Origin: an uncultured Bacteroidales bacterium
GTDB lineage: Bacteria > Bacteroidota > Bacteroidia > Bacteroidales > Bacteroidaceae
DNA length: 36,888 nt
Assembly: GCA_902779315.1 (NCBI GenBank)
Contig: CACZBC010000036.1
Span: 1-36,888, forward strand
Reading direction: 5' to 3'
The translations under genes were made by a program, and so were the position numbers. Below are positions 298 through 31,351 of the stretch, piece by piece. Numbering within the stretch: the stretch's first letter is position 1; each line of letters begins with the position of its first letter. The notes under the pieces are model-generated. The model worked only from the letters and a program-made list of their open reading frames with translations. It was not told the DNA's origin and did not search any database.

Positions 298-365
298 GAT
301 GCATTATGTGGTATTTAATGTTGTACTGTGTCGTGTTGGAAAACGAGGCGTAGTTAAAATGCAAA

Positions 366-431
366 CGTATAGTGTTACGTTGGCAATCGTATAGTGTTAT
401 GATGGCAATTATATAGTGTTATGTTTTCAAT
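366..431. repeat. 22-bp-period tandem array A (3 units)
   Basis: Three consecutive 22-bp units start at 366, 388 and 410. Each contains TATAGTGTTA followed by a variable core and CAAT: cores are CGTTGG, TGATGG and TGTTTT. The array ends four bases from the stop codon of the minus-strand mono-heme lipoprotein (stop at 438-436). It belongs to the same family as the arrays at 7797, 17587, 22109 and 29743. The rest of the 298-435 gap shows nothing else recognisable. Confidence 0.85.
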
Positions 432-435
432 CTAA

Positions 436-1179
436 CTATGGGAGGTTTTCAATCCAATTGTCGATGAGGTTCGAAACCTCCTCTAGGTTCGACTTGAACT
501 GACTGCTCAGGATTTCCGTATGATTGTGAGAAAGGAGGTTCTCGCCGCCTTCGTTCAGGATGAGATGAAGTAGCGAGCCCTCAGCATTACCGCTTTCCAC
601 GCGAAGATATCCCTCTTTTCGAGAACTCGGAACATTCACCAAAGCGGCCTCAGCATTACCTTCCGTCAGGTTGAGACCCGCAGCCGAACGACCACTTGCT
701 CCGTGACATTGGATGCAAGCTCGGTCGAAAAGTCCTGTCTGCAGAACGCCGAAACGCCCTACATCGATACGCCCCAGGTCCAGACGAATCGTGTCGCGAG
801 CGGAATTGTCCCTGTAGTCGTTCATGTTTATGGTTGCGAGCGTGATGATGCGCTTCCTGAGGGAATTGGTCAGAACGAGTTCCACAGTTTGCAATTCACT
901 ACTCAAGTTCGACAATACGATACTGAGAGGCAAGTTGTCTTCGACACTCGAGGGCAGAGCTTTTTGCAAGATGGCGTACTTACTGTCTGCCGTGAAACCT
1001 GCTACTGCAACCGTATTGCCCGTTCCTTCCCACTCGCCGAGTCCGCTCACTTGGGCCGTCACCTTTACCGTATAACCCTTTTCGTCAACGGTATAGACCT
1101 TATCCAAAATGTCTCCGCTATCACAGGAAACAAGCCCCCAAAGCAAACCTATTATATATAAATAATGTGTCGATTTCAT
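436..1179 (-). CDS. Mono-heme cytochrome c-like lipoprotein
   Basis: A 247-residue protein with a lipoprotein signal ending LVSC (Cys19) and one c-type heme motif, CIQCH, at residues 155-159, followed by GASGRSAAGLNL as in small cytochrome c domains. The N-terminal half has no recognised fold and looks like a beta-rich adapter. The ATG at 1179 was chosen because the signal peptide begins there (MKSTHYLYII) and because it lies one base after the stop of the upstream porin gene, so translation is probably coupled. It is the last gene of the five-gene operon. With the di-heme oxidoreductase it makes two c-heme lipoproteins in one locus, suggesting electron transfer at the cell surface or in the periplasm. 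The exact partner is unknown. Confidence 0.8.
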   Translation of the reverse strand: MKSTHYLYIIGLLWGLVSCDSGDILDKVYTVDEKGYTVKVTAQVSGLGEWEGTGNTVAVAGFTADSKYAILQKALPSSVEDNLPLSIVLSNLSSELQTVELVLTNSLRKRIITLATINMNDYRDNSARDTIRLDLGRIDVGRFGVLQTGLFDRACIQCHGASGRSAAGLNLTEGNAEAALVNVPSSRKEGYLRVESGNAEGSLLHLILNEGGENLLSHNHTEILSSQFKSNLEEVSNLIDNWIENLP

Positions 1180-7757: not shown

Positions 7758-7796
7758 AGGTTGTATTGAGTCGAGAGCCTATTCTTGAGTTCCCCA

Positions 7797-7862
7797 GTGT
7801 AATTGCCAAACATCACGTGTGAAGTTGGCAAACATCACACGTGATGTTTCCACTTTTCACGT
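7797..7862. repeat. 22-bp-period tandem array B (3 units)
   Basis: Three 22-bp units begin at 7797, 7819 and 7841, with cores AATTGCCAAACATCAC, AAGTTGGCAAACATCAC and ATGTTTCCACTTTTCAC, each after GTG. The junction of units 2 and 3 forms a strong dyad (AAACATCAC, AC, GTGATGTTT; 7830-7849). It lies 40 bp downstream of the regulator stop and 95 bp upstream of the next promoter, so it could act as a hairpin in the regulator's 3' end. Confidence 0.8.
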
Positions 7863-15223: not shown

Positions 15224-17587
15224 ATGTATAATACTCTTGAAATAGCATCCTTTATTGGAGCCCCAACGGACGGCCTGAAAGGGCGTGAGATTGACTGGTT
15301 GCTGACGGACAGTCGCAGCCTCTGTTATCCAGAATCAACACTCTTCTTTGCCATAAAAACAGAAGTAGGTAACGGACACCTGTATGTTGCCGACCTGTAT
15401 CAACGAGGCGTACGTGCTTTTGTGGTAAGCGAAAAGGTGGAAGGCGATTTCCCAGATGCCGACTTCCTCTTCGTTCAAAATACACTCTTCGCACTTCAAT
15501 CACTTGCAGCACAACATCGTTCTCGCTTTGACGTCCCCATCATAGGAATTACGGGCAGTAATGGAAAGACTGTTGTCAAGGAATGGCTTTACCAACTCTT
15601 GGCACCCGACTTCACAGTTACCCGCAGCCCACGCAGTTATAACTCGCAAACAGGTGTTCCCCTTTCTGTATGGGGACTTAATGAAAACACCCAGATTGGC
15701 ATCTTCGAGGCAGCCATTTCGAAGAAGAACGAGATGGTGGCTCTGGAGCGCATCATCAAGCCCACAATCGGCATCTTCACTTGCCTGGGTGGTGCACATC
15801 AGGAGAACTTCTCAACCTTCGAGGAAAAGTGTATGGAGAAACTCCAACTGATGAAGGATGCGAAGGTTGTCATTTATCCTGCCGGAGACTCCGTGATAAA
15901 GGATTGCATTCGTCAGGCCCGGCTGAAAGGCCGACTTGTTGCCTGTCCTTCCACAGGGAATGCCTATGAGGATAACGAAGCACTTTGCCGAGCTGCCTGT
16001 CGCGAGATGGGACTCGACGATGACATAATAGAAGAACGTCTGCGCGCACTCGAACCAGTGGCTATGCGACTCGAAGTGAAGGACGGACAGAACGACTGTA
16101 CACTCATCAACGACTCCTATAACAGCGACATTAGCAGTCTGGACATTGCACTCGATTTCATGAATCGCAGACCCGAGAAAGAAGGCCGCCAGCGCACCCT
16201 CATTTTGAGTGACATCCTGCAGAGCGGAGTAGAACCTCACGCCCTCTATACTCAACTTGCCGATCTGCTTGAACAACGCGGCATCAACAACCTGATTGCC
16301 GTTGGTGGCGTCATTTCCGCCCACATGAACTGCTTTGCCGGCTTGCCCATCTGCTGTCGGTTCTTCGCCAATACGGACGCACTCTTGCAGGACGACATAA
16401 TGAACAAACTGGAGCATCAACTCATCCTCATCAAGGGTGCACGCAAGTTCCATTTTGAGCGCATAACCGACCGACTGGAGAAGAAAGTGCACGAAACCAT
16501 CCTCGAAGTCAATCTTAGCGCACTCGTGGACAATCTCAACTATTACCGCTCGTTCCTGAAGCCCGAGACGAAGATGGTTTGCATGGTAAAAGCCGATGCG
16601 TATGGAGCAGGGGCAGTCGAGGTGGCTAAGACGCTCCAGGACCACAATGTCGATTACCTGGCAGTAGCCGTAGCCGACGAAGGTGTCACACTTCGCGAGA
16701 AAGGCATCACGCAAGGCATCATGGTGATGAACCCCGAAATGAGCAGTTTCAGCACGCTCTTCCAATACAATCTGGAGCCGGAGATTTACAGTTTCCGACT
16801 CCTCGACGCACTCATCTATGCTGCTGAGCACGAGGGCATTACGAACTTCCCGGTTCACATCAAGCTCGATACAGGAATGCATCGTCTCGGCTTCGATCCG
16901 GAGAAGGATATTCCCAGACTCATCGAGCGCTTGAAACGGCAGACTGCCCTCATTCCTCGTTCTGTATTCTCGCACTTCGTTGGCAGCGACTCTGATAACT
17001 TCGACGAATTCTCCGCCAAACAATACGACCTCTTCCTGAAGGGCAGCAAACAGCTTCAGGAAGCCTTTCCCCACCCCATTCTGCGACACATCTGCAATAG
17101 CGCGGGCATCGAGCATTTCCCCGAAAGACAACTCGAAATGGTACGACTCGGACTCGGACTTTACGGCATCAACCCCCGTAACGACCAGACCATTCACAAC
17201 GTCAGCACCCTTCGCACCACCATCCTGCAGATTCACGACGTGAAAGCTGGCGAAAGCGTGGGTTACAGCCGCAAAACCGTGCTTGAAAGAGACAGCAGGA
17301 TTGCAAGCTTGCCGATAGGTTATGCCGACGGACTGGACAGATTGCTTGGCAACAGGAAAGGCTATTGCCTGGTTAATGGGCAGAAGGCTGATTACGTGGG
17401 CAACATCTGCATGGATGTCTGCATGATAGACGTAACAGACATTCCATGCGAAGAAGGCGACCTCGCTACTATTTTCGGCGATGAGTTGTCACCCTCGAAA
17501 CTCGCCTCACTTTGCGGCACAATCCCCTACGAAATCCTGACAGGCATAGCTCCACGCGTGAAACGTATCTACTTCGAAGACAAGTAG
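15224..17587 (+). CDS. MurF-like ligase fused to alanine racemase
   Basis: 787 residues. Residues 1 to about 425 are a Mur-ligase module with P-loop GITGSNGKT (108-116), GGAHQENFS and NDSYNSD, resembling MurF. Residues about 430-787 are a PLP-dependent alanine racemase with MVKADAYGAG (PLP Lys456), IKLDTGMHRLGF, and the catalytic-Tyr region SVGYSRKTV (Tyr681). Such bifunctional MurF/Alr proteins are known in Bacteroidota; the racemase makes D-Ala and the MurF part would add D-Ala-D-Ala to the UDP-MurNAc-tripeptide. A separate full MurF is encoded at 22905-24200. In this copy the MurF motif ETGANHPGEI is replaced by EAAISKKNEM, so its ligase activity is uncertain. A 22-bp repeat array starts at the last base of the stop codon. 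Confidence 0.93.
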   Translation: MYNTLEIASFIGAPTDGLKGREIDWLLTDSRSLCYPESTLFFAIKTEVGNGHLYVADLYQRGVRAFVVSEKVEGDFPDADFLFVQNTLFALQSLAAQHRSRFDVPIIGITGSNGKTVVKEWLYQLLAPDFTVTRSPRSYNSQTGVPLSVWGLNENTQIGIFEAAISKKNEMVALERIIKPTIGIFTCLGGAHQENFSTFEEKCMEKLQLMKDAKVVIYPAGDSVIKDCIRQARLKGRLVACPSTGNAYEDNEALCRAACREMGLDDDIIEERLRALEPVAMRLEVKDGQNDCTLINDSYNSDISSLDIALDFMNRRPEKEGRQRTLILSDILQSGVEPHALYTQLADLLEQRGINNLIAVGGVISAHMNCFAGLPICCRFFANTDALLQDDIMNKLEHQLILIKGARKFHFERITDRLEKKVHETILEVNLSALVDNLNYYRSFLKPETKMVCMVKADAYGAGAVEVAKTLQDHNVDYLAVAVADEGVTLREKGITQGIMVMNPEMSSFSTLFQYNLEPEIYSFRLLDALIYAAEHEGITNFPVHIKLDTGMHRLGFDPEKDIPRLIERLKRQTALIPRSVFSHFVGSDSDNFDEFSAKQYDLFLKGSKQLQEAFPHPILRHICNSAGIEHFPERQLEMVRLGLGLYGINPRNDQTIHNVSTLRTTILQIHDVKAGESVGYSRKTVLERDSRIASLPIGYADGLDRLLGNRKGYCLVNGQKADYVGNICMDVCMIDVTDIPCEEGDLATIFGDELSPSKLASLCGTIPYEILTGIAPRVKRIYFEDK

Positions 17588-17674
17588 CACGTTAAGCTGA
17601 CAGATTAGGCACGTTAAGTTGGCAGATTAGGCACGTTAAGTTGGCAGATTAAGCACGTTAAATTTGGAATTTAA
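17587..17674. repeat. 22-bp-period tandem array C (4 units)
   Basis: Units start at 17587, 17609, 17631 and 17653. Units 2 and 3 are identical except for the last base (GCACGTTAAGTTGGCAGATT plus AG or AA). Unit 1 differs by two bases in the core and unit 4 is degenerate (AAATTTGGAATTT). The first unit begins at the final G of the murF-alr TAG stop codon. The remaining 40 bp to the next ATG hold no clear promoter or riboswitch. Confidence 0.9.
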
Positions 17675-17714
17675 CCATGTCAGATTTTAAATAATAACGT
17701 ATCATAGCTACGGA

Positions 17715-21392: not shown

Positions 21393-22111
21393 TCAGTCTG
21401 CAAAACCTTACAGTCGGCTACGGCGAAAAAGCCATCCTCTCCGACATCAACCAAACGCTCGAACCAGGTCGTCTTGTTTGTCTGCTCGGCTCGAATGGCG
21501 TGGGAAAAAGCACCATTCTGCGCACCCTGGCAGGCTTCCTGCAGCCCCTGGCGGGGAGGGTGCTGTTCGACGGTAAAGACCTCACGTCGCTCTCCCTTTC
21601 GCAAAGGAGCAAAGCCGTCTCCATCGTGCTGACAGAGAGAGTTGAAGTGCCGTACATGAAGGTTGCCGACCTCGTAGGGATGGGGCGTTCGCCCTATACA
21701 GGCTTCTTCGGAACCCTCACAAAAGAAGACAAAGCCATCGTAGGCGAAGCCATAGAAATGGTGGGAATAGGCAATCTGGCGGAGCGGACTATCGACACCC
21801 TGAGCGACGGAGAACGGCAGAAAGCATTCCTGGCCAAAGCCTTAGCGCAACAGACGCCCATCATCCTGCTCGACGAACCGACGGCTTTCCTCGACTTCCA
21901 CGCAAAGATAAGCACGCTCCGACTGATGCAGAAACTCGCTCACGAGACGGACAAAACCATCCTGATGAGTACGCACGACGTGGAAATGTCACTTCGACTG
22001 AGCGACATACTTTGGATTGTGCAGGACGGGGAAATCCATACTGGCACAACAGCCTCCCTCACAGAAAGCGGCATCCTCCGCCAGTTCCTGGGCGACGAAA
22101 GCCCCCTATAG
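21389..22111 (+). CDS. ABC transporter ATPase (BtuD/FecE type)
   Basis: 240 residues. Walker A is GSNGVGKST at 34-42, the signature is LSDGERQKAFLAKAL, and Walker B is PIILLDEPTAFLD, followed by the switch His in LMSTHDVEM. The signature has Asp in place of the first Gly of LSGGE. It is the energy-coupling subunit for the permease at 18781-19797. The ATG overlaps the GH20 stop (ATGA), so the order is binding protein, permease, GH20, ATPase. Its TAG stop codon is also the first three bases of 22-bp array D. Confidence 0.92.
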   Translation: MISLQNLTVGYGEKAILSDINQTLEPGRLVCLLGSNGVGKSTILRTLAGFLQPLAGRVLFDGKDLTSLSLSQRSKAVSIVLTERVEVPYMKVADLVGMGRSPYTGFFGTLTKEDKAIVGEAIEMVGIGNLAERTIDTLSDGERQKAFLAKALAQQTPIILLDEPTAFLDFHAKISTLRLMQKLAHETDKTILMSTHDVEMSLRLSDILWIVQDGEIHTGTTASLTESGILRQFLGDESPL

Positions 22112-22196
22112 TGTGACGATTGCAATCATCTAGTGTGACGATGGCGATTAACTAGTGTGACGTTGGCATTTGTCACGTTTGAAGTTTGCAAACTTC
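22109..22196. repeat. 22-bp-period tandem array D (4 units plus a partial)
   Basis: Units start at 22109, 22131, 22153 and 22175, and a partial one at 22197. The first three open with TAGTGTGACG and diverge after it; the fourth contains a perfect 16-bp palindrome GAAGTTTGCAAACTTC (22181-22196). The TAG of unit 1 is the stop codon of the ABC ATPase. The array forms the left end of the long element 22109-22800. Confidence 0.9.
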
Positions 22197-22800
22197 ACGT
22201 GTGAAAATCCGAGTTTACCCTGCAGCAGTGCCCTCATCTTTCACACTGAAAATTTACGAAATAATAGTGAATTATGCAAGTAAATTGGCAATTATTTTCA
22301 CAGAAAATGAAAGTTTTTTCAGCAGCGGCGAAGTGGGAAAGTGGGAAAGTGTCTTATGGACAGGAAGCGAAAACGGGTACGTGTGACGGAAACACGACAG
22401 CACTATAAGATTATTAATAGAGTTTTAATTATATTAATTAATAATATTAATAATAATCTTATATTATAATTATAAATAATAGATAATATAAAATTATCTT
22501 ATTTATTCTTACCGCCTCGTGACGACATGAAAATCATTCCTGTCGTATTACCATTTTCCCATTTTCCCATTTTCCCGGTAAAACGTATGGGAGTATGAGA
22601 AGTTTTTCGTAACTTACACCCGAAGCACTGACACCACATGAACGGATAGTCTTGGCAACAACGTATGCCCTCCATTTCCCCCGTAAATGCCCCTAGAATC
22701 GCTTCAAATCACTCTGGCGCACAATCTGCCGCCGAAGCAAAAACAGGCGCTCCACGAGGCTTTTAACGAACCATTAAAATTCTTTGAATTTTACTACCTC
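22109..22800 (+). repeat. Long non-coding interspersed element, copy 1
   Basis: Between the convergent ATPase and murF genes. In order: 22-bp array; a conserved stretch with CGAGTTTACCCTGCAG (22210-22225) and TGAATTATGCAAGTAAATT (22268-22286); left arm with 8-bp GTGGGAAA repeats ending GACAGGAA (22333-22366); a very AT-rich centre (about 22400-22510); right arm in inverse orientation, TTCCTGTC to three TTTTCCCA-like octamers (22537-22576); a 107-bp core (22577-22683) almost identical to copy 2; a block with ATTGTGCG/GCCGAAGC-type sequence and the AAAATTCTTTGAATTTT dyad. Copy 2 is at 29224-29808 in reverse orientation. No transposase, target duplication or coding function is evident. Confidence 0.85.
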
Positions 22801-22848
22801 AAAACGGCCATAAACTTTGCCCTCCAATTCAACTCAGAAACTAACTAA
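22687..22848 (+). CDS. Doubtful small ORF in the repeat element (53 aa)
   Basis: ATG at 22687, TAA at 22846-22848. It contains the phrase AHNLPPKQKQALH and a hydrophobic end (EFYYLKTAINFALQF). The second element has a matching frame starting at 29331 on the minus strand. In the first 23 codons I count four replacement changes and one silent change between the copies, so protein-level constraint is not supported and the similarity may reflect DNA conservation. No good promoter or ribosome site is seen. Confidence 0.2.
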   Translation: MPLESLQITLAHNLPPKQKQALHEAFNEPLKFFEFYYLKTAINFALQFNSETN

Positions 22849-22904
22849 AGAAGCCCCTCTGCTTTGCAGCGGAGAGACTTCATCCTGCTACGAAGTGTAT
22901 GTTC

Positions 22905-24200
22905 CTATTCGAACGCCTCGGGCAATTGGTGGAGTTTGGTGCCGTTGCTGCCCTTGATGAGGATGATGGAATCTGATATCGGCTCTGCCTTCAAAGCCGC
23001 CTTCACTTCCTCCACATCCTTGAAGACGCGCATACCCTCTTCTGCAACTTTTTCGAACTCACTACCCACGAGCCAAATGCGCTCCAGCTCCATCCCCTGA
23101 AGCTGCCCGACTATACGTTTATGTTCTTCAAGGCTTTCTTCACCAAGTTCTCGCATGTCTCCGAGTATCACCATCTTATGCTCACCATCAAAGAAGGAAA
23201 AGTTAGTCAGGGCTGCCGACATGCTCGAGGGGTTTGCGTTATAGGCATCGACAACAAGGCGATTGCTTCCGACCTCCCTCAGTTCGCTCCGACTGTTGGT
23301 GGGTTTGTAAGTCTGCAAAGCGTGGTCAATCTGCTCGGGAGCAATACCGAAATAGAGTCCTATCGTGACTGCTGCACGAAGATTGGCTATATTGTAGGCG
23401 CCAATCAGGTTGGTCTTGACTGTGTGCCAAGGCGCGTCGTCTTCAGACCGCCATTGCATCTCGACGAAAGGTGCCACTTCGCTCACCCTGCCCTCGACAT
23501 ACGGAAGGGCATCCTCCCATAATGCGAAACCGCGCTCCTGAGCCATCTGGAGGAGGTCGGTATCGAATGCATTCAGGAAGATTTTCTTGCCGCGCCCCAG
23601 CAGGTCGTCATAGAGTTCGCCCTTCGTCCGCTTCACGCCCTCGAAGCTGCCAAAGCCTTCCAGATGGGCACGGCCGACATTCGTGATGAGTCCGAAGTCT
23701 GCCTCTACAATACGGCAAAGGTCAGCAATCTCGCCAGGATGATTGGCGCCAGTCTCGATGACGGCAATATCGTGCTCGGGCTTGATGCGTAGCAGGGTGA
23801 GAGGCACTCCGATGTGATTGTTGAGGTTGCCTTCGGTAAAGAGAACCTGCCTGCCTTCGGAAAGGACAGCGCTGATGAGTTCCTTCGTAGTCGTCTTGCC
23901 GTTCGTGCCCGTAATCTGGAGGACAGTCCCACCCCAAACCTTACGATGATGGGCGGCCAAATCCTGCAAGGCCTTCAGCACATCGGGAACGAGGATGAGC
24001 CGCTCGTCCTGCTTCGCGACATCGGGATTGTCCACAACGGCGAAGGCACAACCCTTCTGGAGGGCCTGAAGGGCATAGTGGTTCCCGTCGAACGTTTCGC
24101 CCTTCAAGGCAAAGAAAATGCTCCCTTCCGGGCACTTGCGGCTATCCGTCGTAACAACCGGATGCTCTTTGTAAATGGCATATAATGCTTTGGTATTCAT
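22905..24200 (-). CDS. murF: UDP-N-acetylmuramoyl-tripeptide--D-alanyl-D-alanine ligase
   Basis: 431 residues from the ATG at 24200, chosen because it begins four bases after the stop of the upstream lipoprotein gene and the protein aligns from MNTKALYAIY. The ATP loop is ITGTNGKTTTKE (96-107), followed by LTLLRIKPEHDIAVIETGANHPGEI, NVGRAHLEGFGSFEGV and DAYNANPSSM, all standard MurF motifs. It adds D-Ala-D-Ala to the UDP-MurNAc-tripeptide in the cytoplasm. It is presumably the main MurF, as it keeps the ANHPGEI motif that is changed in the fused MurF-Alr at 15224. It converges on the ABC ATPase gene across the repeat element. A weak hairpin (CTGC-AAA-GCAG, near 22860-22870) followed by CTTCTTT may terminate it. 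Confidence 0.93.
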   Translation of the reverse strand: MNTKALYAIYKEHPVVTTDSRKCPEGSIFFALKGETFDGNHYALQALQKGCAFAVVDNPDVAKQDERLILVPDVLKALQDLAAHHRKVWGGTVLQITGTNGKTTTKELISAVLSEGRQVLFTEGNLNNHIGVPLTLLRIKPEHDIAVIETGANHPGEIADLCRIVEADFGLITNVGRAHLEGFGSFEGVKRTKGELYDDLLGRGKKIFLNAFDTDLLQMAQERGFALWEDALPYVEGRVSEVAPFVEMQWRSEDDAPWHTVKTNLIGAYNIANLRAAVTIGLYFGIAPEQIDHALQTYKPTNSRSELREVGSNRLVVDAYNANPSSMSAALTNFSFFDGEHKMVILGDMRELGEESLEEHKRIVGQLQGMELERIWLVGSEFEKVAEEGMRVFKDVEEVKAALKAEPISDSIILIKGSNGTKLHQLPEAFE

Positions 24201-24204
24201 GTCT

Positions 24205-25125
24205 TTATCGTTTGTTGTTCTTGCCATGATGAGGTTTGATGCGGACCACTCCGCCACCATTCGTTTGCATGATGAGGCTGCGGCGATAGGGTTCGCAATC
24301 CTCGAATTCGTGAGGCACTTGCTTCTGGAAATCTATGATGTTGTCGAGTCGTTTCTTCTGAAGATTCCAGACATAGAGGATGCTGGGCTGCGCTGCTGTT
24401 CCCACGCCAACGGGAATGAACATCTGGTCGCCCTTGATGCACGCTCCCTGCCCGATATGATTGGAGGGGAAGCGCGGGTCTAAGTCCTGGATGCAATAGT
24501 TGTCGAGCGCATTTCTGGGATGAAGATGGACGACAGGGCCGTCGCTGAGCCTGGGCAGAGGGAAGATTATGGTGCGCCAACGATTGCCTTTTCCCATGTT
24601 CTCCACCGTATTGCCATAACCAATGAGGAGTTTGCGCTTGCTGTCTATCATCCATTGCAAAGCATATCCGAAGAGGCCGTTCGAATCGTCGAGAACGATA
24701 GTCTGGACCAGTCTGGGCGCTTCCGTCAGCGAAATGCGCTCCACAAAGCAGACGTCCTTCATGCCGTTGTGCCTCTGCTTGGAACATTGCGAGACATAGA
24801 GCAGCGGGAACTGGTCGTTCTTGTGGTAACGCTCTATGCCAAAGAAAGCCACATTGGCATGATTCTCAGGCATTTGACTGGCCAAAGGGAACTGGCGAAG
24901 CATTTGAAGTCCGCCATTTTGCATACGATAGATGGTGGCCCAACCCGTATTCTGAAGGCTGACGAGATAGTTGTCCCAAATGGCCATTCCCTGGTAACTC
25001 TGCTTTTGAACGCCTTGCAAATCGGCATACTTTTGGACGGAAGCGTTTGTGAAATCGACAGGCACGCAAGCCGTCAGAGACATTATTGCCGTCAAAAGGC
25101 AAAGGGAAAGAGTGCGATATTTCAT
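24205..25125 (-). CDS. Uncharacterised beta-propeller-like lipoprotein
   Basis: 306 residues with a lipoprotein signal ending LTAC (MKYRTLSLCLLTAIMSLTAC, Cys20). The mature part has repeated strand-turn segments (YQGMAIWDNYLVSLQNTGWATIYRM, NDQFPLLYVSQCS, ALQWMIDSKRKLLIGYGN, QPSILYVWNLQKKRLDNII) that suggest a propeller of about six blades. I do not recognise a specific family. It is upstream of and almost contiguous with murF, so the pair is probably co-transcribed. A -7 box TAACTTTG lies at 25155-25148. Its position next to murF hints at an envelope role but does not prove it. Confidence 0.75.
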   Translation of the reverse strand: MKYRTLSLCLLTAIMSLTACVPVDFTNASVQKYADLQGVQKQSYQGMAIWDNYLVSLQNTGWATIYRMQNGGLQMLRQFPLASQMPENHANVAFFGIERYHKNDQFPLLYVSQCSKQRHNGMKDVCFVERISLTEAPRLVQTIVLDDSNGLFGYALQWMIDSKRKLLIGYGNTVENMGKGNRWRTIIFPLPRLSDGPVVHLHPRNALDNYCIQDLDPRFPSNHIGQGACIKGDQMFIPVGVGTAAQPSILYVWNLQKKRLDNIIDFQKQVPHEFEDCEPYRRSLIMQTNGGGVVRIKPHHGKNNKR

Positions 25126-25147
25126 AATCTAAGTTCGTTTTGCCTTG

Positions 25148-25155
25148 CAAAGTTA
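25148..25155 (-). promoter_or_regulatory. -7 box upstream of the lipoprotein-murF pair
   Basis: TAACTTTG on the minus strand, 22 bp upstream of the ATG at 25125. A matching -33 element is not clear. It is divergent from the folP promoter 20 bp away. Confidence 0.45.
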
Positions 25156-25173
25156 AACCTTTTTTCGGAAATT

Positions 25174-25205
25174 CTTGCCATTTATATAAATAATGTGTAC
25201 CTTTG
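25174..25205 (+). promoter_or_regulatory. folP promoter
   Basis: A -33 CTTG (25174-25177), a 20-bp spacer and a -7 box TACCTTTG (25198-25205). The predicted start near 25212 leaves a very short leader before the GTG at 25219. Confidence 0.6.
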
Positions 25206-25218
25206 TGCGATATTTTGT

Positions 25219-26061
25219 GTGACTGTGCTCTCGACTTCATCATACAGCATCAACGTAGGCGGCGAATTGCTTTCGCTGGAGAAGCCCGTAGTGATGGGCA
25301 TTCTGAATGCTACGCCCGACTCTTTCTATCAGCATCACGAAGGAGACGAAGCCATTCGTCTGCGAACCAGACAGATGCTCGATGAAGGTGCTGCGATACT
25401 TGACGTTGGGGCTTGCTCCACCCGTCCCGGCTTTACGCCTCCCGATGAAAAGGAGGAGATGCGGCGCCTCGGGGAAGCTCTGGCCATTGTCCGCAAGGAA
25501 GCTCCCGAAGCCGTCCTGAGCGTCGATACATTCAGGGCAGATGTTGCCAAGATGTGTGTCGAAGAGTATGGCGTGCAAATAGTGAACGACATCAGCGGAG
25601 GCGAACTCGACAAAGAGATGTTCCGAACGGTAGCAGAGCTGCGAGTGCCTTACGTCCTGACGCACAATAAAGCACTTCCCCAAGAGAAGGAAGACACTTT
25701 CCTCTCTGAGTTCCTGCAAGAGATGGGCGGCAAAGTCGAGCAGCTTCACGAGCTGGGTGTGTGCGACATCATCCTCGACCCGGGCTTCGGCTTCGGCAAA
25801 ACACTCGAGCAGAACTACATCCTCATGCAGAACCTCGAAGTCTTGCACGAACTCGACTTGCCCTTGCTCGTCGGCATAAGCCATAAGAGCATGATATACA
25901 AGCTGTTGGGAACGACTCCCGGGGAAGCCTCCAACGGAACAACAGTCCTGCATACTGTGGCTCTGCAGAAGGGTGCTCACATCCTTCGAGCCCACGAAGT
26001 GAAGGAAGCAATGGAATGTATTAGGAAGCAATGGAATGTATTAAGATCATTAACGAATTGA
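25219..26061 (+). CDS. folP: Dihydropteroate synthase
   Basis: About 280 residues. Diagnostic motifs are VMGILNATPDSFY, ILDVGACSTRPG, VNDISGG, DPGFGFGKT and GISHKSM. It joins p-aminobenzoate to dihydropterin pyrophosphate in folate synthesis and is the sulfonamide target. No ATG exists between the promoter and the conserved core, so the start is GTG at 25219 (or 25225), giving a leader of only a few bases. The C-terminus is altered: a perfect 20-bp tandem duplication (26004-26023 and 26024-26043) shifts the frame. Without it the tail would read VKEAMECIKIINELSECLT and stop at 26076-26078, overlapping dacA; with it the tail is VKEAMECIRKQWNVLRSLTN. Confidence 0.92.
   Translation: MTVLSTSSYSINVGGELLSLEKPVVMGILNATPDSFYQHHEGDEAIRLRTRQMLDEGAAILDVGACSTRPGFTPPDEKEEMRRLGEALAIVRKEAPEAVLSVDTFRADVAKMCVEEYGVQIVNDISGGELDKEMFRTVAELRVPYVLTHNKALPQEKEDTFLSEFLQEMGGKVEQLHELGVCDIILDPGFGFGKTLEQNYILMQNLEVLHELDLPLLVGISHKSMIYKLLGTTPGEASNGTTVLHTVALQKGAHILRAHEVKEAMECIRKQWNVLRSLTN
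26004..26043 (+). repeat. Perfect 20-bp tandem duplication in the 3' end of folP
   Basis: The unit GGAAGCAATGGAATGTATTA occurs twice without a gap. Because 20 is not a multiple of three, it changes the reading frame of the last folP codons. Confidence 0.95.
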
Positions 26062-26065
26062 GCGA

Positions 26066-26845
26066 ATGCCTAACATAAGTTTCAAAGACATCGTCGACAT
26101 TTTCCTAGTCGCGATAGTGCTCTACTATTGCTACAAGTTGATGAAGCAATCGCGCTCCGTCAACATCTTCTATGGCATTCTGCTTTTCGTCAGCTTCTGG
26201 ATTATCATCAGCAAGGTGCTGGAGATGAAGTTGTTGGGAGGCATTCTCGACCAACTGGTCGGTGTTGGCGCACTTGCCATCATCATCCTCTTCCAGGAAG
26301 ACATCCGACGCTTCTTCTACAACATAGGAGCCCGAAACCAAGCTCATCGCTTCTTCCGATTCTTCCGACTGGACAAGCACAAGAACACGGGTGAGTTCCG
26401 CAACGAACGCGAGACCATCTTCCCCATCGTTATGGCCTGCATGAACATGAGCAAGCAACACGTCGGAGCCCTCATCGTCCTGCAGAACGACCTGCCCCTG
26501 GGCGAGTTCATGCGAACGGGCGAAGAGGTTGACGCCAAGATAACACAACGACTCATCGAGAACATCTTCTTCAAGAACAGTCCGCTTCACGACGGCGCCA
26601 TGATTATCGCGAAAGGACGGATAGCAGCCGCTTCGTGCATCCTGCCCATCAGTCACGACCTGGACATTCCAAAGGAGTTCGGCCTTCGACATCGTGCAGC
26701 AAAAGGCATCAGCAAAGAGACCGACGCCCTGGCAATCGTGGTGAGCGAAGAGACGGGCAACATCAGCGCTGCCTATTCGGATATGCTTCGCGCCCACCTC
26801 TCTGCGGAAGAACTGGAGACACTACTCATGAAAGGAAAATTCTAG
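26066..26845 (+). CDS. dacA: Diadenylate cyclase CdaA
   Basis: 259 residues. Three N-terminal membrane segments (about 10-27, 32-50, 57-76) are followed by a DAC domain with the catalytic DGA at 176-178 (LHDGAMIIAKGRI) and RHR at 208-210 (LRHRAAKGIS). The enzyme makes cyclic di-AMP from two ATP at the membrane; the messenger commonly controls K+ transport and envelope homeostasis. The ATG begins five bases after the folP stop, and in the inferred ancestral frame folP would have overlapped it. The folP-dacA pairing is common in Bacteroidota. Confidence 0.95.
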   Translation: MPNISFKDIVDIFLVAIVLYYCYKLMKQSRSVNIFYGILLFVSFWIIISKVLEMKLLGGILDQLVGVGALAIIILFQEDIRRFFYNIGARNQAHRFFRFFRLDKHKNTGEFRNERETIFPIVMACMNMSKQHVGALIVLQNDLPLGEFMRTGEEVDAKITQRLIENIFFKNSPLHDGAMIIAKGRIAAASCILPISHDLDIPKEFGLRHRAAKGISKETDALAIVVSEETGNISAAYSDMLRAHLSAEELETLLMKGKF

Positions 26846-26854
26846 GCCTCACCC

Positions 26855-26880
26855 CATCCCTCTCCCAAAGAGAGGGGGAT
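26855..26880. other. Hairpin between dacA and pta
   Basis: CCCTCTC (26858-26864), loop CCAAA, GAGAGGG (26870-26876). It begins 12 bases after the dacA stop and is not followed by a T tract, so it is a processing or attenuation hairpin, or a REP-like unit, rather than a standard terminator. The rest of the 72-bp gap is AT-rich with two GTAAATGAT copies. Confidence 0.55.
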
Positions 26881-26917
26881 TGAATGGTAAACCGTAAATG
26901 ATAAAATAGTAAATGAT

Positions 26918-27925
26918 ATGACTTTAATGGAACAAATCATCGCTCGAGCCAAGTCCTGCAAGCAGCGCATCGTGCTGCCCGAGAGCTTGGAGGAGCGAAC
27001 ACTAACAGCGGCAGACAAAGCTTTGGCAGACGACCTGGCCGACATCATCCTGATTGGCAAGCCAAGTGAAATCTTCGCGCTTGCAGACAAGCTGGGACTC
27101 AAAAACATTGGCAAAGCCACAATCATCGACCCCGCAACCAACGAGAAGACTGAGGCTTACGTCCAACTCTTCTACAATCTCAGGAAGAACAAAGGCGTGA
27201 CTGAGGAAGAGGCTCGCGAGAAAGTGAAAGACCCTCTCTACTATGGCTGTCTCATCATCAAGAGCGGAGATGCCGACGGACAGATTTCGGGAGCACTCTC
27301 CACGACTGGCGATACGCTTCGTCCTGCCCTGCAAATCATCAAATGCGCGCCTGGCGTGAGTTGCGTCAGCGGAGCTATGCTGATGATTACGCCTGCGAAG
27401 GAGTATGGCGAGGATGGCGTCCTGGTGATGGGCGACGTTGCAGTTACACCGATGCCCGATGCCAACCAGCTTGCTCAGATTGCCGTCTGCACGGCTCAGA
27501 CTGCCCGTAGCGTAGCAGGCTTCAAGGAGCCTCGCGTGGCTATGCTCAGCTTCAGCACGAAGGGAAGCGCCAGTCACGAGGTGGTAGACAAGGTTGTTGA
27601 AGCCACGAAGAAGGCCCAAGAGATGGAGCCCACGCTTCAGATTGACGGCGAACTGCAAGCAGATGCGGCTCTCGTGCCAAGCGTTGGAGCGAAGAAGGCT
27701 CCCGGCAGCCACATTGCAGGCAAAGCAAACGTGCTGGTAGCACCCTGCTTGGAGGTTGGCAACATTGGCTACAAACTCGTTCAGCGCCTTGCTGGAGCCG
27801 AAGCCATCGGCCCCATTCTGCAGGGCATCGCCCGTCCCGTCAACGACCTCAGCCGCGGCTGCTCAGTAGATGACATTTATAAAATGATAGCAATCACTGC
27901 TTGCCAAGCGATGGATGCGAAATAG
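26918..27925 (+). CDS. pta: Phosphate acetyltransferase
   Basis: 335 residues, the short single-domain form. It starts MTLMEQIIARAKSCKQRIVLPES and carries the PTA core SGALSTTGDTLRPALQIIK, FSTKGSASH, LQIDGELQADAALVP and AGKANVLVAPCLEVGNIGYKL. It converts acetyl-CoA and phosphate to acetyl phosphate. The gene ends 16 bp before ackA, forming the classical acetate/ATP module of an anaerobic fermenter. Confidence 0.95.
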   Translation: MTLMEQIIARAKSCKQRIVLPESLEERTLTAADKALADDLADIILIGKPSEIFALADKLGLKNIGKATIIDPATNEKTEAYVQLFYNLRKNKGVTEEEAREKVKDPLYYGCLIIKSGDADGQISGALSTTGDTLRPALQIIKCAPGVSCVSGAMLMITPAKEYGEDGVLVMGDVAVTPMPDANQLAQIAVCTAQTARSVAGFKEPRVAMLSFSTKGSASHEVVDKVVEATKKAQEMEPTLQIDGELQADAALVPSVGAKKAPGSHIAGKANVLVAPCLEVGNIGYKLVQRLAGAEAIGPILQGIARPVNDLSRGCSVDDIYKMIAITACQAMDAK

Positions 27926-27941
27926 TTCACTCTTCACTAAA

Positions 27942-29132
27942 ATGAAAATATTAGTTCTTAACTGCGGCAGCAGTTCTATTAAATATGCACTCTACAACAT
28001 GGACGACCAGTCCGTCATCACAAGTGGCGGCATTGAGAAGATTGGTCTGCCCGATTCGTTTATCACTGTCAAACTCAATGGCGAGAAGCACAAATGGGAA
28101 CACCCCATAGGGGAACATACGGCTGGTGTGCAGTACATCTTCGAAGTGCTGACTACAGGCGAATATGCCGTCCTGAAGAGCCTCGAGGAGCTTGATGCCG
28201 TAGGTCACCGAATGGTGCACGGCGGCGAGAAGTTCAACAAGTCCGTTCGCCTCACTCCCGAAGTGATGGAAGCTTTCGCTCAGTGCAACGACCTCGCTCC
28301 TCTTCATAATCCTGCCAACATCAAGGGCGTGAATGCAGTCTCCGCCCTGCTTCCCAACATTCCGCAGGTGGGCGTCTTCGATACCGCATTCCACCAGACA
28401 ATGCCCGATTACGCCTATATGTATGCACTCCCTTACCAACTTTACAAAGAGTATGGTGTGCGTCGTTACGGCTTCCACGGAACCAGTCACAGGTACGTGA
28501 GCCAGCGCGTTTGCGAGTTCCTCGGAGTGAAGCCCGAAGATAAAAGAATCATCACTTGCCACATCGGCAACGGCGCCTCGATTGCTGCCGTGAAGTACGG
28601 CAAGTGCGTCGATACCTCGATGGGCTTGACACCTCTGGAAGGACTGATGATGGGCACGCGTACCGGCGACATTGATGCCGGAGCAGTCACCTATCTGATG
28701 GACAAGTTCAACCTCGACACGAAAGGCATCTCCGACCTGCTGAACAAGAAGTCGGGCCTTGCTGGTGTGAGCGAAGGGAGCAGCGACTTCCGCGACATCC
28801 TGGCCGGCATCGCTGCAGGCAACGACAAAGCCCGTCTGGCAAAGGAGATGTACACCTATCGCATCAAGAAGTACATCGGCGCTTATGCCGCAGCTATGGA
28901 AGGTGTTGACATCATCCTCTTTACTGGCGGTGCTGGCGAGAACCAGTGGGAAGTGCGCGAAGGAGCCACCAACGGCCTCGAGTACATGGGCGTCAAGATG
29001 GACCAGACCAGGAATCGCAGCTGCCGTGCTACGGAAGCCATCCTGAGCGCCGACGACAGCCAGGTTACCGTCTGCTGCATCCCCACCGACGAGGAACTCA
29101 TGATTGCCCTCGACACGCAAGCCCTCTGCTAA
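27942..29132 (+). CDS. ackA: Acetate kinase
   Basis: 396 residues from the ATG at 27942, which starts the conserved MKILVLNCGSSSIKYAL. Other family motifs: AVGHRMVHGG, RRYGFHGTSHRYVSQR, CHIGNGASIAAVK, GLMMGTRTGDIDAGA and FTGGAGEN. It transfers phosphate from acetyl phosphate to ADP, giving acetate and ATP. It is 16 bp downstream of pta and is followed by a strong terminator at 29160. Confidence 0.96.
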   Translation: MKILVLNCGSSSIKYALYNMDDQSVITSGGIEKIGLPDSFITVKLNGEKHKWEHPIGEHTAGVQYIFEVLTTGEYAVLKSLEELDAVGHRMVHGGEKFNKSVRLTPEVMEAFAQCNDLAPLHNPANIKGVNAVSALLPNIPQVGVFDTAFHQTMPDYAYMYALPYQLYKEYGVRRYGFHGTSHRYVSQRVCEFLGVKPEDKRIITCHIGNGASIAAVKYGKCVDTSMGLTPLEGLMMGTRTGDIDAGAVTYLMDKFNLDTKGISDLLNKKSGLAGVSEGSSDFRDILAGIAAGNDKARLAKEMYTYRIKKYIGAYAAAMEGVDIILFTGGAGENQWEVREGATNGLEYMGVKMDQTRNRSCRATEAILSADDSQVTVCCIPTDEELMIALDTQALC

Positions 29133-29159
29133 AAAACAAACTTCTCGGATAAAAAACTA

Positions 29160-29187
29160 AGCCCCCGCCAATCGGTGGGGGCTTTTT
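29160..29187 (+). terminator. Rho-independent terminator of pta-ackA
   Basis: Stem AGCCCCCGCC with GGTGGGGGCT (one G-T pair), loop AATC, then TTTTT, 27 bp after the ackA stop. Confidence 0.9.
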
Positions 29188-29223
29188 CGGATTAAGAGTT
29201 GAGAGCGAGGAACGTTCAGAAGC

Positions 29224-29808
29224 ATAAAATTCTTTGAATTTTAAAGCCTCGCCCACGAGCCCGTGGAGCGCTTGTTTTTGCTTCGGCGGCAGATTGTGCG
29301 CCTGAGGGATTTGAGGCGATTCTAGGGCCATTTGCGGGGGAAATGGAGGGCATACGTTGTTGCCAAGACTATCCGTTCATGTAGTGTCAGTGCTTCGGGT
29401 GTAAAGTTACGAAAAACTTCTCATACTCCCATACGTTTTACCGAGAAAGTGAGAAAGTGGACATGTGGACATGTGGACAGGAATAGCTTTTTAGGGTAAA
29501 ACGGAGGGAGAATGTAGATATATATATAACATATATATACTATATTAAATATAATAATAATATTATTAATAATAAAACTCTATTAATAATCTTATAGTGC
29601 TGCCGTGATTCCGTCCATTTCGCTTCCTGTCCATAAGACACTTTCCCACTTTAATTTACTTGCATAATTCACGATTATTTCGAAATTTGCAGGCGTGAAA
29701 GATGAGGGAACTACTGCAGGGTAAACTCGGATTTTCACACGTGATGTTTGCAAACTTCAAACGTGACAAATGCCAACGTCACACTAGTTAATCGCAATCG
29801 TCACACGC
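29224..29808 (-). repeat. Long non-coding interspersed element, copy 2
   Basis: Between the convergent ackA and GH43 genes, in reverse orientation to copy 1 at 22109-22800. Reading on the minus strand from 29808: a 22-bp array (29808-29743), the CGAGTTTACCCTGCAG stretch, an arm with GTGGGAAA and GACAGGAA in inverse form at 29624-29631, an AT-rich centre with TATATA runs (about 29510-29590), the opposite arm with GACAGGAA at 29476-29483 and 8-bp GTGGACAT and GAGAAAGT repeats, the near-identical core (29335-29442), and the AHNLPPKQKQALH block ending in the AAAATTCTTTGAATTTT dyad. The centre and octamers differ most from copy 1. The remaining gap (29188-29223 and 29809-29833) shows nothing else. 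Confidence 0.85.
29743..29808. repeat. 22-bp-period tandem array E (3 units)
   Basis: Units 29743-29764, 29765-29786 and 29787-29808 correspond, as reverse complements, to units 4, 3 and 2 of array D. The unit at 29765 is an exact reverse complement of unit 22153-22174. It lies 25 bp downstream of the minus-strand GH43 stop and forms the end of element copy 2. Confidence 0.9.
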
Positions 29809-29833
29809 GATAACGAACGGGGCGACTTTTGGC

Positions 29834-31351
29834 TTATTTCGTGACATTGTACTGGAACTGCTCGAAGTGGGCTTTGCCGTTCGAGCCGTAGCAATAGAGG
29901 CCGAGACGAACGCCTTTCCAATTGCCTTCGTGCATCTGGAACGGTTCGCCTGCAGGAACGAAATGCTTGCCGTCCAGGCTGTACGCGAATTGATAGCTGT
30001 TCTGGGGTTCATTGAGTGAGAGCCGCAAATGGATGCGCTTCGGCTTCTTTACCAGCACAACAGTTCGCTCGCCGTTTGCCTCGATGCAGACACCTTCTGG
30101 ACAGAGCCCGATGCCCCTGAAGTCGCGCCCCATACAGACGAGCCCAGCAGAAGCCTGGTCGAGTTCGGAAGCAAGGAGCAGCGCCGTTGCCTCGCCTTCG
30201 TAGCCCATCATCATTTGCGTGAGCGTGCCTCGGGCTTCCCTCAGATTATCGGCTGGCAGGGCATGAAGAGTAAGGCACCCCCTCCGCTCGGAGAGGCTCC
30301 ACGCACCTTCCACGGGATTGTGGTTCCATTGCCACTGAAGCCCCAGCGTTGTGCCGTCGAAAGTGTCGTCAGTCTGCGGCAGGGAGGGAGCTTGAGTGGC
30401 TGCTGTCTTGGGTTTCGTCCAAACCTCTACAGGCTCGCCCACGCCATTGCCGTCAATGTCCACACCGATGAGGGGCCAGTCGTCTTTCCAACGCGCAGGC
30501 TGAAGATGGAGCACTCGGCCCAGCTGCGGTGTCTGCTGGAAATGATAGAACCACCATTCACCTTCGGGCGTATCGACGAGCGCTCCCTGATGAGGGCCAT
30601 TGAAGCGTGTGCTGCCCTGTTCGAGGACAATGCGCCGTTCATAGGGGCCATAGATATTCTTCGAGCGCAGAGCGGTCTGCCATCCGCCCCCCACTCCGCC
30701 TTCGGGAATGATGAGGTAGTAGTATCCTCCGCGCTTCATCCACTTTGTCCCTTCAGCAACAGGCCCCTCGTAGACAGTCACACCATCATCCAGCAGCTGG
30801 CGTCCGTCAGCCGTCATTCGGTGCACAATGATAGGTCCCGCTCCCAGCTGGCTTCGGCCCAAATAAGCCCCTCCGTCTTCGTCCCAGAAAGGGCACGGGT
30901 CTTCCCATCCACTTATGTTCTTGACGTGGTGCAACTTCGCCCAAGGCCCGCGCACATCGCTAGCCGACGACATGAAGAGGCCCTCGTCTGGCGTACAGAA
31001 GAAGACGTAGAACTTGCCCTCGTGATAGCGTATGCTGGGTGCCCAAGCGCCTCCGCCGTAGTGCTTCGTCTCGTCCCATCCGGGCAAATCGAAGCGGCTG
31101 AAGATTTGGCTTACGAAGTGCCAATTGACCATATCCGCGCTCTCCAGAACCTGCATCCCCAGATGGTTGAAGTTGCTGGAAACCATATAGTAGCTGTCTC
31201 CAACGCGAATGACATCCGGGTCGGAATAGTCGGCATTGAGGAGCGGATTGCGATACGTGCCATTGCCTTGATCACCCCAGAGGAGCGGACTCTGTGCCGA
31301 CGCATAGGCCGTCCAGAGCAAGGAAATAAGCAACAGAAAGGCTTTCCTCAT
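29834..31351 (-). CDS. Secreted glycoside hydrolase family 43
   Basis: 505 residues with a signal peptide (MRKAFLLLISLLWTAYASA). The five-blade catalytic domain has YSDPDVIRV with the base Asp44, ISGWEDPCPFWDEDGG with Asp151, and VAEGTKWMKRGGYYYL with the acid Glu200. From about residue 335 a beta-sandwich follows (DDTFDGTTLGLQWQWNHNP...), as in GH43 enzymes with a concanavalin-like C-terminal module. The likely activity is beta-xylosidase or alpha-L-arabinofuranosidase on plant hemicellulose; the subfamily is not certain. It begins six bases after the LRR lipoprotein stop, so the two are co-transcribed. Confidence 0.92.
   Translation of the reverse strand: MRKAFLLLISLLWTAYASAQSPLLWGDQGNGTYRNPLLNADYSDPDVIRVGDSYYMVSSNFNHLGMQVLESADMVNWHFVSQIFSRFDLPGWDETKHYGGGAWAPSIRYHEGKFYVFFCTPDEGLFMSSASDVRGPWAKLHHVKNISGWEDPCPFWDEDGGAYLGRSQLGAGPIIVHRMTADGRQLLDDGVTVYEGPVAEGTKWMKRGGYYYLIIPEGGVGGGWQTALRSKNIYGPYERRIVLEQGSTRFNGPHQGALVDTPEGEWWFYHFQQTPQLGRVLHLQPARWKDDWPLIGVDIDGNGVGEPVEVWTKPKTAATQAPSLPQTDDTFDGTTLGLQWQWNHNPVEGAWSLSERRGCLTLHALPADNLREARGTLTQMMMGYEGEATALLLASELDQASAGLVCMGRDFRGIGLCPEGVCIEANGERTVVLVKKPKRIHLRLSLNEPQNSYQFAYSLDGKHFVPAGEPFQMHEGNWKGVRLGLYCYGSNGKAHFEQFQYNVTK

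Follow-up and report, generated by a model that had tools for sequence, protein, structure and literature searches.

The window analysed here, a stretch of 36,888 nucleotides from an uncultured Bacteroidales bacterium of the family Bacteroidaceae (assembly GCA_902779315.1, contig CACZBC010000036.1), holds two long non-coding stretches, copy 1 at 22109-22805 on the plus strand and copy 2 at 29808-29224 on the minus strand. Codon-scored gene calls, which are also the source of the gene contexts given below, place both between convergent genes: an ABC ATPase and a Mur ligase flank copy 1, and GH43 and acetate kinase (ackA) flank copy 2. Each stretch is one copy of a non-coding element that is dispersed in the genome and made up, in order, of a left module, a hairpin and an R module that carries a terminal dyad. 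The element is present in some genomes and absent from others at orthologous gaps, the two arms of its hairpin are complementary to each other within a copy, and at fixed loci both arms turn over together. The parts of the two copies are as follows.

22108..22207, plus strand: copy 1, 22-bp minisatellite of the CTAGTGTGACG.TTGC.ATTAA type, final units inverted
22200..22319, plus strand: copy 1, conserved leader block, GTGAAAATCCGAG...GAAAGTTTTTT
22330..22366, plus strand: copy 1, left hairpin arm of tandem GTGGGAAA units
22402..22510, plus strand: copy 1, AT-rich core of the hairpin
22537..22578, plus strand: copy 1, right hairpin arm CCATTTTCCCATTTTCCC, complementary to the left arm
22579..22805, plus strand: copy 1, R module with a conserved core of about 140 bp
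22776..22792, plus strand: copy 1, terminal dyad AAAATTC-TTT-GAATTTT
29740..29808, minus strand: copy 2, 22-bp array of two to three units, counted by eye
29653..29739, minus strand: copy 2, leader block, shorter
29624..29652, minus strand: copy 2, left hairpin arm
29510..29600, minus strand: copy 2, AT-rich core
29441..29484, minus strand: copy 2, right hairpin arm of GTCCACAT units plus TTTCTCAC
29224..29440, minus strand: copy 2, R module
29226..29242, minus strand: copy 2, terminal dyad with loop AAA in its own orientation

The homology of the two copies is far above chance (E = 1.1e-150 over the entire copies) and resides in five collinear, inverted block pairs: 22128-22286/29653-29811 (159 nt, 91% identity), 22338-22372/29618-29652 (35 nt, 100%), 22385-22438/29562-29615 (54 nt, 89%), 22559-22615/29404-29460 (57 nt, 93%) and 22614-22793/29225-29404 (180 nt, 88%). 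This agrees with the original prediction, made from the letters of the window, of the same ordered blocks in opposite orientation between convergent genes, with coordinates that proved accurate within a few bases and with no convincing gene inside (the longest complete open reading frames in the two gaps have 66 and 55 amino acids). Other parts of it need amendment. Pfam confirms the ABC ATPase, acetate kinase and GH43 as neighbours, and the gene named murF as a Mur ligase at family level. Copy 2 starts about 25 bp past the stop codon of GH43, and in copy 1 the first 22-bp array unit contains the stop codon of the ABC ATPase (TAG, 22109-22111). The terminal dyad is present in both copies but its loop is not identical, since copy 2 in its own orientation reads AAAATTC-AAA-GAATTTT, with the loop flipped. 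The ordered conservation around a variable centre also holds, but the centre turns out to be the long hairpin, which is the part of the element that tells most. In relatives the ABC ATPase ends in different C-terminal residues, as judged by eye, and the array may have clipped the end of the gene in the window's genome. On the minus strand of the copy 1 leader block there is a motif that looks promoter-like by eye. The same leader block is also found at L006 and L007 (contigs C4 and C15 of this genome), upstream of genes whose products have, by eye only, the look of HU-family DNA-binding proteins.

The size of the family can be gauged from the R module. The window's genome (G000), probably a metagenome-assembled genome (MAG), is a fragmented assembly of 2.83 Mb that is 84% complete, and a search of it with positions 22600-22805 gave 35 rows, with 27 places at E <= 1.4e-4; seven of the remaining eight rows are short matches to the dyad region. 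At least one further complete copy (C71:14695) emerges when a second R copy serves as query. Of the 139 genomes in the genus, 14 carry the R module, G000 among them, and the R core is also found in six stretches from three Bacteroidaceae MAGs of goat and yak rumen or omasum. Searching with the whole element gave at least 48 places in G000 (40 of 301 candidates scored), mostly through the left array. These R counts in the genome and the genus establish the dispersed element that had been predicted and rule out a pair of copies with none in relatives. An alignment of 54 R copies has a conserved core of about 140 bp with the dyad at its end; two of 56 copies were left out as lacking the dyad, so that its pairing in 54 of 54 holds by construction. 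Among 83 gathered copies, 76 have an AAATTC-n-GAATTT dyad, with the loop TTT in 35, AAA in 17 and another in 24. In the window copies the left module consists of the 22-bp minisatellite and the leader; other subfamilies have different left modules. No published description of such a family was found in searches of open-access literature listings. The work thus defines a repeat family that fills intergenic gaps, and breaks contigs, in rumen Bacteroidaceae.

Upstream of R lies an AT-rich core between inverted arms of tandem 6-9-bp units, an architecture that recurs across several subfamilies. For the 56 copies with an arm score of at least 24, the best unit period is 9, 8, 7 and 6 bp in 20, 13, 13 and 10 copies, respectively, and the tandem score of the arms is 13.9 versus -4.4 in shuffled arms; by eye, the usual count is about three units per arm. 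The units vary among copies (GTGGGAAA, GCAACAAAA, GTGACAAAA, CTAACACTT, GTTTCAGCG, GTCTCAGTT and others), and each arm fits its own partner. In a pairing matrix of 32 hairpins, kept from 40 after removal of near-duplicates, own arms score 42.4 on average versus 20.4 across copies, and the own partner scores highest in 22 of 32 rows and 18 of 32 columns. Uniformity within elements can be measured in 27 elements of a CAG type (28 elements less L345, which has the same hairpin as L267; 8 of the 28 had their arms entered by hand), taken as arms with at least three ....CAG.. words, so that the constancy of CAG follows from the search pattern. In these, 113 of 126 units carry the majority prefix of their element, only 19 of 351 element pairs share a prefix, and 15 four-base prefixes occur beside CAG. 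At L106, two hairpins with unlike units (TCTATCAGTT-like and ACTAACAAA) stand consecutively upstream of a single R module, and at L025 a single gap holds two hairpin-R units in tandem, the arms of which are built of unlike units (TGTTGCTTT-like and ATGTTGCAT-like).

The hairpin can also be found by its structure. A search without R recovered eight paired hairpins in 25 AT-rich windows, versus none of 25 once an arm was shuffled. Half of the eight had no R match nearby, among them two members of a third subfamily, whose units are GCTACAGTT or GTTGCAGTT. With an arm score of at least 24 as threshold, 397 kb of G000 yielded hairpins at 6 of its 21 AT-rich windows and 389 kb of congeners with R at 7 of 41, but none appeared at the 13 such windows in 358 kb of congeners without R or at the 42 in 347 kb from other families (13/62 versus 0/55, p 0.00016).

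Evidence on how the arms change comes from loci shared between genomes. At L163, the cleanest case, G000 and a second genome, G098, have 240 of 254 identical positions in the neighbouring intergenic flank (94%), 171/187 in R (91%), 108/113 in the core (96%) and 282/309 in the left module (91%), versus 18/28 (64%) and 15/25 (60%) in the two arms; both arms are built of GTCTCAGTT-type units in one genome and of ATCACAGT-type units in the other. Over 14 pairs at six shared loci, mean identity reaches 0.84 in R, 0.82 in the left module and 0.74 in the core, against 0.66 and 0.67 in the arms, and own arms pair at 35.8 versus 16.8 when arms of different species at one locus are mixed. Two subfamily-3 paralogues within G000 agree in 84 of 91 core positions and 53 of 54 of the right flank, and in 20 of 26 for each arm; by eye, two identical substitutions recur in each of six units. 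Half-changed arms are seen as well, at L349, where two units of one arm are altered, and at L112.

The presence of the element at a given place also varies. The L163 gap holds it in G000 and G098, is without it in G100, G005, G027 and G123, and contains about 6 kb of other DNA in G126. The copy 1 gap was readable in six of 12 genomes searched. G098 and G127 have arrays alone, G005 has a short stretch that resembles an array, G123 has a hairpin but no R, in G088 the gap measures 67 bp, and G027 has other sequence. The state in G005 may be a deletion remnant, and insertion and loss are not always separable. The copy 2 gap measures 69 bp in G036. In G098 an element stands beside GH43 (the stretch does not reach ackA). 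Eighty consecutive bases of its AT core occur unchanged in copy 1 of G000 but are missing from copy 2, a pattern suggestive of copying or conversion between elements. A phage origin gains no support from two R patterns, searched as exact matches only, neither of which occurred in any viral contig. Two IMG/VR contigs (L240, L241), which may be phage or host DNA, carry the 22-bp array pattern.

The 22-bp array is a genome-wide minisatellite. A survey of 20 G000 stretches plus the window (434,366 bases, some stretches picked on contigs with known hits) found 44 period-22 arrays, about 42 of them by eye of the window-array family and two (L168:16523, L171:214) of another sequence. Density per 100 kb is 10.1 in the G000 stretches, 10.0 in congeners with R, 2.2 in congeners without R and 0.9 in other families of the order. 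Among G000 gaps of at least 60 bp, arrays occupy 13 of the 30 convergent ones and are thereby commoner there than in tandem gaps (25 of 112, p 0.035) or divergent gaps (4 of 34, p 0.005). Three more period-22 arrays lie in the window (353-436, 7790-7852 and 17573-17692), other short tandem repeats occur near genes elsewhere in G000 at L007 and L071 (GTTCAAT four times in L071), and at 26003-26042 in the window, near the 3' end of a pterin-binding enzyme gene, a 20-bp sequence, its length not divisible by three, is exactly duplicated in tandem.

The R copies themselves occur in mixed settings. Of 56 in G000 and relatives, 24 are without a called gene on one or both sides; for the remaining 32 the gap is convergent in 10 cases, tandem in 17 and divergent in 5. 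Lying between convergent genes, as the window copies do, is therefore not a rule, and the suggested barrier between convergent genes is unsupported as a general role.

The explanation towards which we lean is that of intergenic hairpin elements that spread by copying, slippage plus arm-to-arm template switching keeping their arms homogeneous, with selection for pairing. A modular non-coding hairpin element would have multiplied in one group of rumen Bacteroidaceae, reaching new sites by copying through an enzyme or by recombination. A change in one unit could spread along its arm by slippage among the tandem units, and template switching at the hairpin, as the DNA replicates, could then carry the altered sequence over to the other arm, such that one or a few events might rewrite both arms. 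The rewriting of a stem in a single event by template switching, as presented in the available text of PMC8794818, fits the joint turnover of the arms. Template switching alone leaves the regular number of units and their constant part unexplained, and for this selection on the hairpin is proposed, which would preserve folding and perhaps a portion of the unit, CAGTT for example. Where it lies at the end of a gene, the hairpin probably works either as an RNA hairpin or as an extruded DNA structure.

Several observations weigh against this explanation, beyond what template switching leaves unaccounted for. The 14 pairs come from six loci and so are not independent, and over them the core (0.74) also falls below R and the left module. 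At L112/L237 the arms were kept, with a shared unit and mixed scores of 38 and 34, and at L002/L136, the window copy 2 locus, cross-species pairing (21 and 23) is as good as own pairing (25 and 19); L063/L121 and L121/L181 align poorly beyond R. The short left flank of the paralogue pair diverged like the arms (19/25). In the pairing matrix, 10 of the 32 rows and 14 of the 32 columns have their best partner in an arm of another copy. The genomes are fragmented assemblies, and some of the sampled stretches of G000 and of congeners with R were selected on contigs already seen to carry hits. Three null results bear on the route of spread. Terminal inverted repeats scored 12-18 in eight elements (the two window copies plus six of subfamily 2; L231 gave no row), each below the maximum of its own 60 shuffles. 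No target duplication was seen by eye between filled and empty L163 sites, the flanks of which diverge too far for a firm reading. There is no recurring protein neighbour, the largest cluster comprising 4 of 163 proteins and several clusters being orthologous loci.

Two rival explanations treat the family as something already familiar. It could be a MITE-like (miniature inverted-repeat transposable element) non-autonomous unit that is moved in trans by a transposase, its arm variability being incidental, a possibility that we take seriously but think less probable. The many copies without a gene inside, the filled and empty orthologous gaps and the several contigs that end within copies, as with recent repeats, would all be expected of it, and the gaps agree with the predicted mobile unit. 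The end repeats, a clear target duplication at L163 (the one site compared in detail) and a recurring neighbour protein were not found, however, and joint arm turnover would go unexplained. Matches to Y1 transposases are no commoner in genomes with R (6 of 14, that in G027 being strong) than in those without (56 of 125); there are none for Y1_Tnp in G000, and 8 of the 14 genomes with R have none, these being incomplete assemblies and other transposase families not having been searched. Alternatively, the R-oriented strand may be transcribed into a large structured non-coding RNA in which the hairpin acts as RNA, for instance in 3'-end protection or partner pairing. Folding is what recommends this unlikely reading: copy 1 is predicted to fold with z -8.5 as RNA (-6.6 as DNA), with mismatched arm positions pairing as G-U on the plus strand, and a subfamily-3 hairpin with z -9.6 as RNA. 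Compared with column shuffles, a weak control, the alignment of R has the better fold, with z -5.1 in the R orientation and -7.0 on the other strand; R as a folded RNA is suggestive only. The strong fold agrees with the structured RNA of the original prediction, but no Rfam family reached its gathering score (with Rfam 15, positions 21900-30000 gave two weak matches, E 0.29 and 5, both under it), and position relative to genes is mixed. Arm mismatches are G-T in 31 cases and A-C in 23 over the 56 copies (p 0.34), and 42 and 26 in an earlier set of 32 copies (p 0.07); with no clear bias, this spectrum does not choose between RNA and DNA structure.

Other rivals concern the arms. Both could be a neutral by-product of tandem slippage plus palindrome correction with zero selection, which we consider distinctly unlikely. 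Slippage is a known mutational process and counts in its favour. Template switching is likewise known as one from the available text of two sources (PMC8794818, PMC8604942). Against neutrality, R, core and left module hold 91-96% at L163 while the arms change, although the flank there is equally conserved; the architecture recurs in several subfamilies, and no such hairpin was found in the 358 kb of congeners without R. It seems improbable, slightly more so than neutrality, that the arms are a rewritable address, a short word of variable letters plus a constant part that is written about three times per arm and replaced everywhere at once by a dedicated process. If that were true, each element would have a private, self-complementary specificity, like a recognition code diverging under conflict or self/non-self discrimination. 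Least probable of all, the units would be protein-binding iterons, the set in both arms co-evolving with a DNA-binding partner of matching specificity. The regular units in inverted arms and the 15 prefixes beside CAG would suit iterons; against them, many unlike units coexist in G000, no recurring protein family lies adjacent, and the constancy of CAG was set by the search pattern. Slippage and template switching under selection for pairing remains the explanation that we prefer, and its bearing is on an old question, namely how long DNA or RNA stems stay paired while their sequence changes. Across related bacteria the family offers a natural series of such loci, where both arms outpace their surroundings together, with some intermediates, and template-switch and slippage models become testable at many replicate loci.

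Known systems share single features with this family. The bcr1-type repeats of Bacillus cereus are dispersed intergenic stem-loops in another phylum, and we know of no repeated short units or joint replacement of both arms in them. Repetitive extragenic palindromes (REPs) and bacterial interspersed mosaic elements (BIMEs) are dispersed, intergenic and paired with RAYT (Y1) transposases. They are similar as dispersed intergenic palindromes but differ in length, REPs being 20-40 bp long according to the available text of one source (PMC3733652), and G000 has no Y1_Tnp match. A REP/RAYT system was rejected on the transposase counts given above, which are not linked to R. Template-switch (quasipalindrome) mutation, which creates and mends stems, likewise turns one stem arm into the complement of the other, but is a process rather than an element, and the source, in its available text, deals with RNA genes (PMC8794818).

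The closest described element known to us is the BrickBuilt MITE of Porphyromonas gingivalis, the ends, unit and layout of which differ from those found here. P. gingivalis belongs to the order Bacteroidales. In the available text of its description, BrickBuilt is intergenic, has a 23-nt minisatellite with a conserved leader and tail, occurs in 19 copies in strain ATCC 33277 with reported promoter activity, and ends in IS5-type terminal inverted repeats, GAGACC...GGTCTC (PMC4596501). Its 23-nt unit lies inside the leader and tail, whereas the unit here has 22 nt and another sequence and lies at the edge of the element; the AT core between complementary, copy-specific arms has no counterpart in that text (PMC4596501). 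Ends of the BrickBuilt type were not found: as raw match counts, the IS5-type ends GAGACCTTTGCA and TGCAAAGGTCTC reach at best 9 of 12 near the window copies, and for the ISPg1 end GAGACCATTGCA the figure is 10 of 12, within one unit of the 22-bp array. The likeness to BrickBuilt lies in an intergenic setting within the Bacteroidales, a minisatellite of near-equal unit length and a conserved leader, and, as with MITEs at large, the family is short, non-coding in both window copies, multicopy and intergenic.

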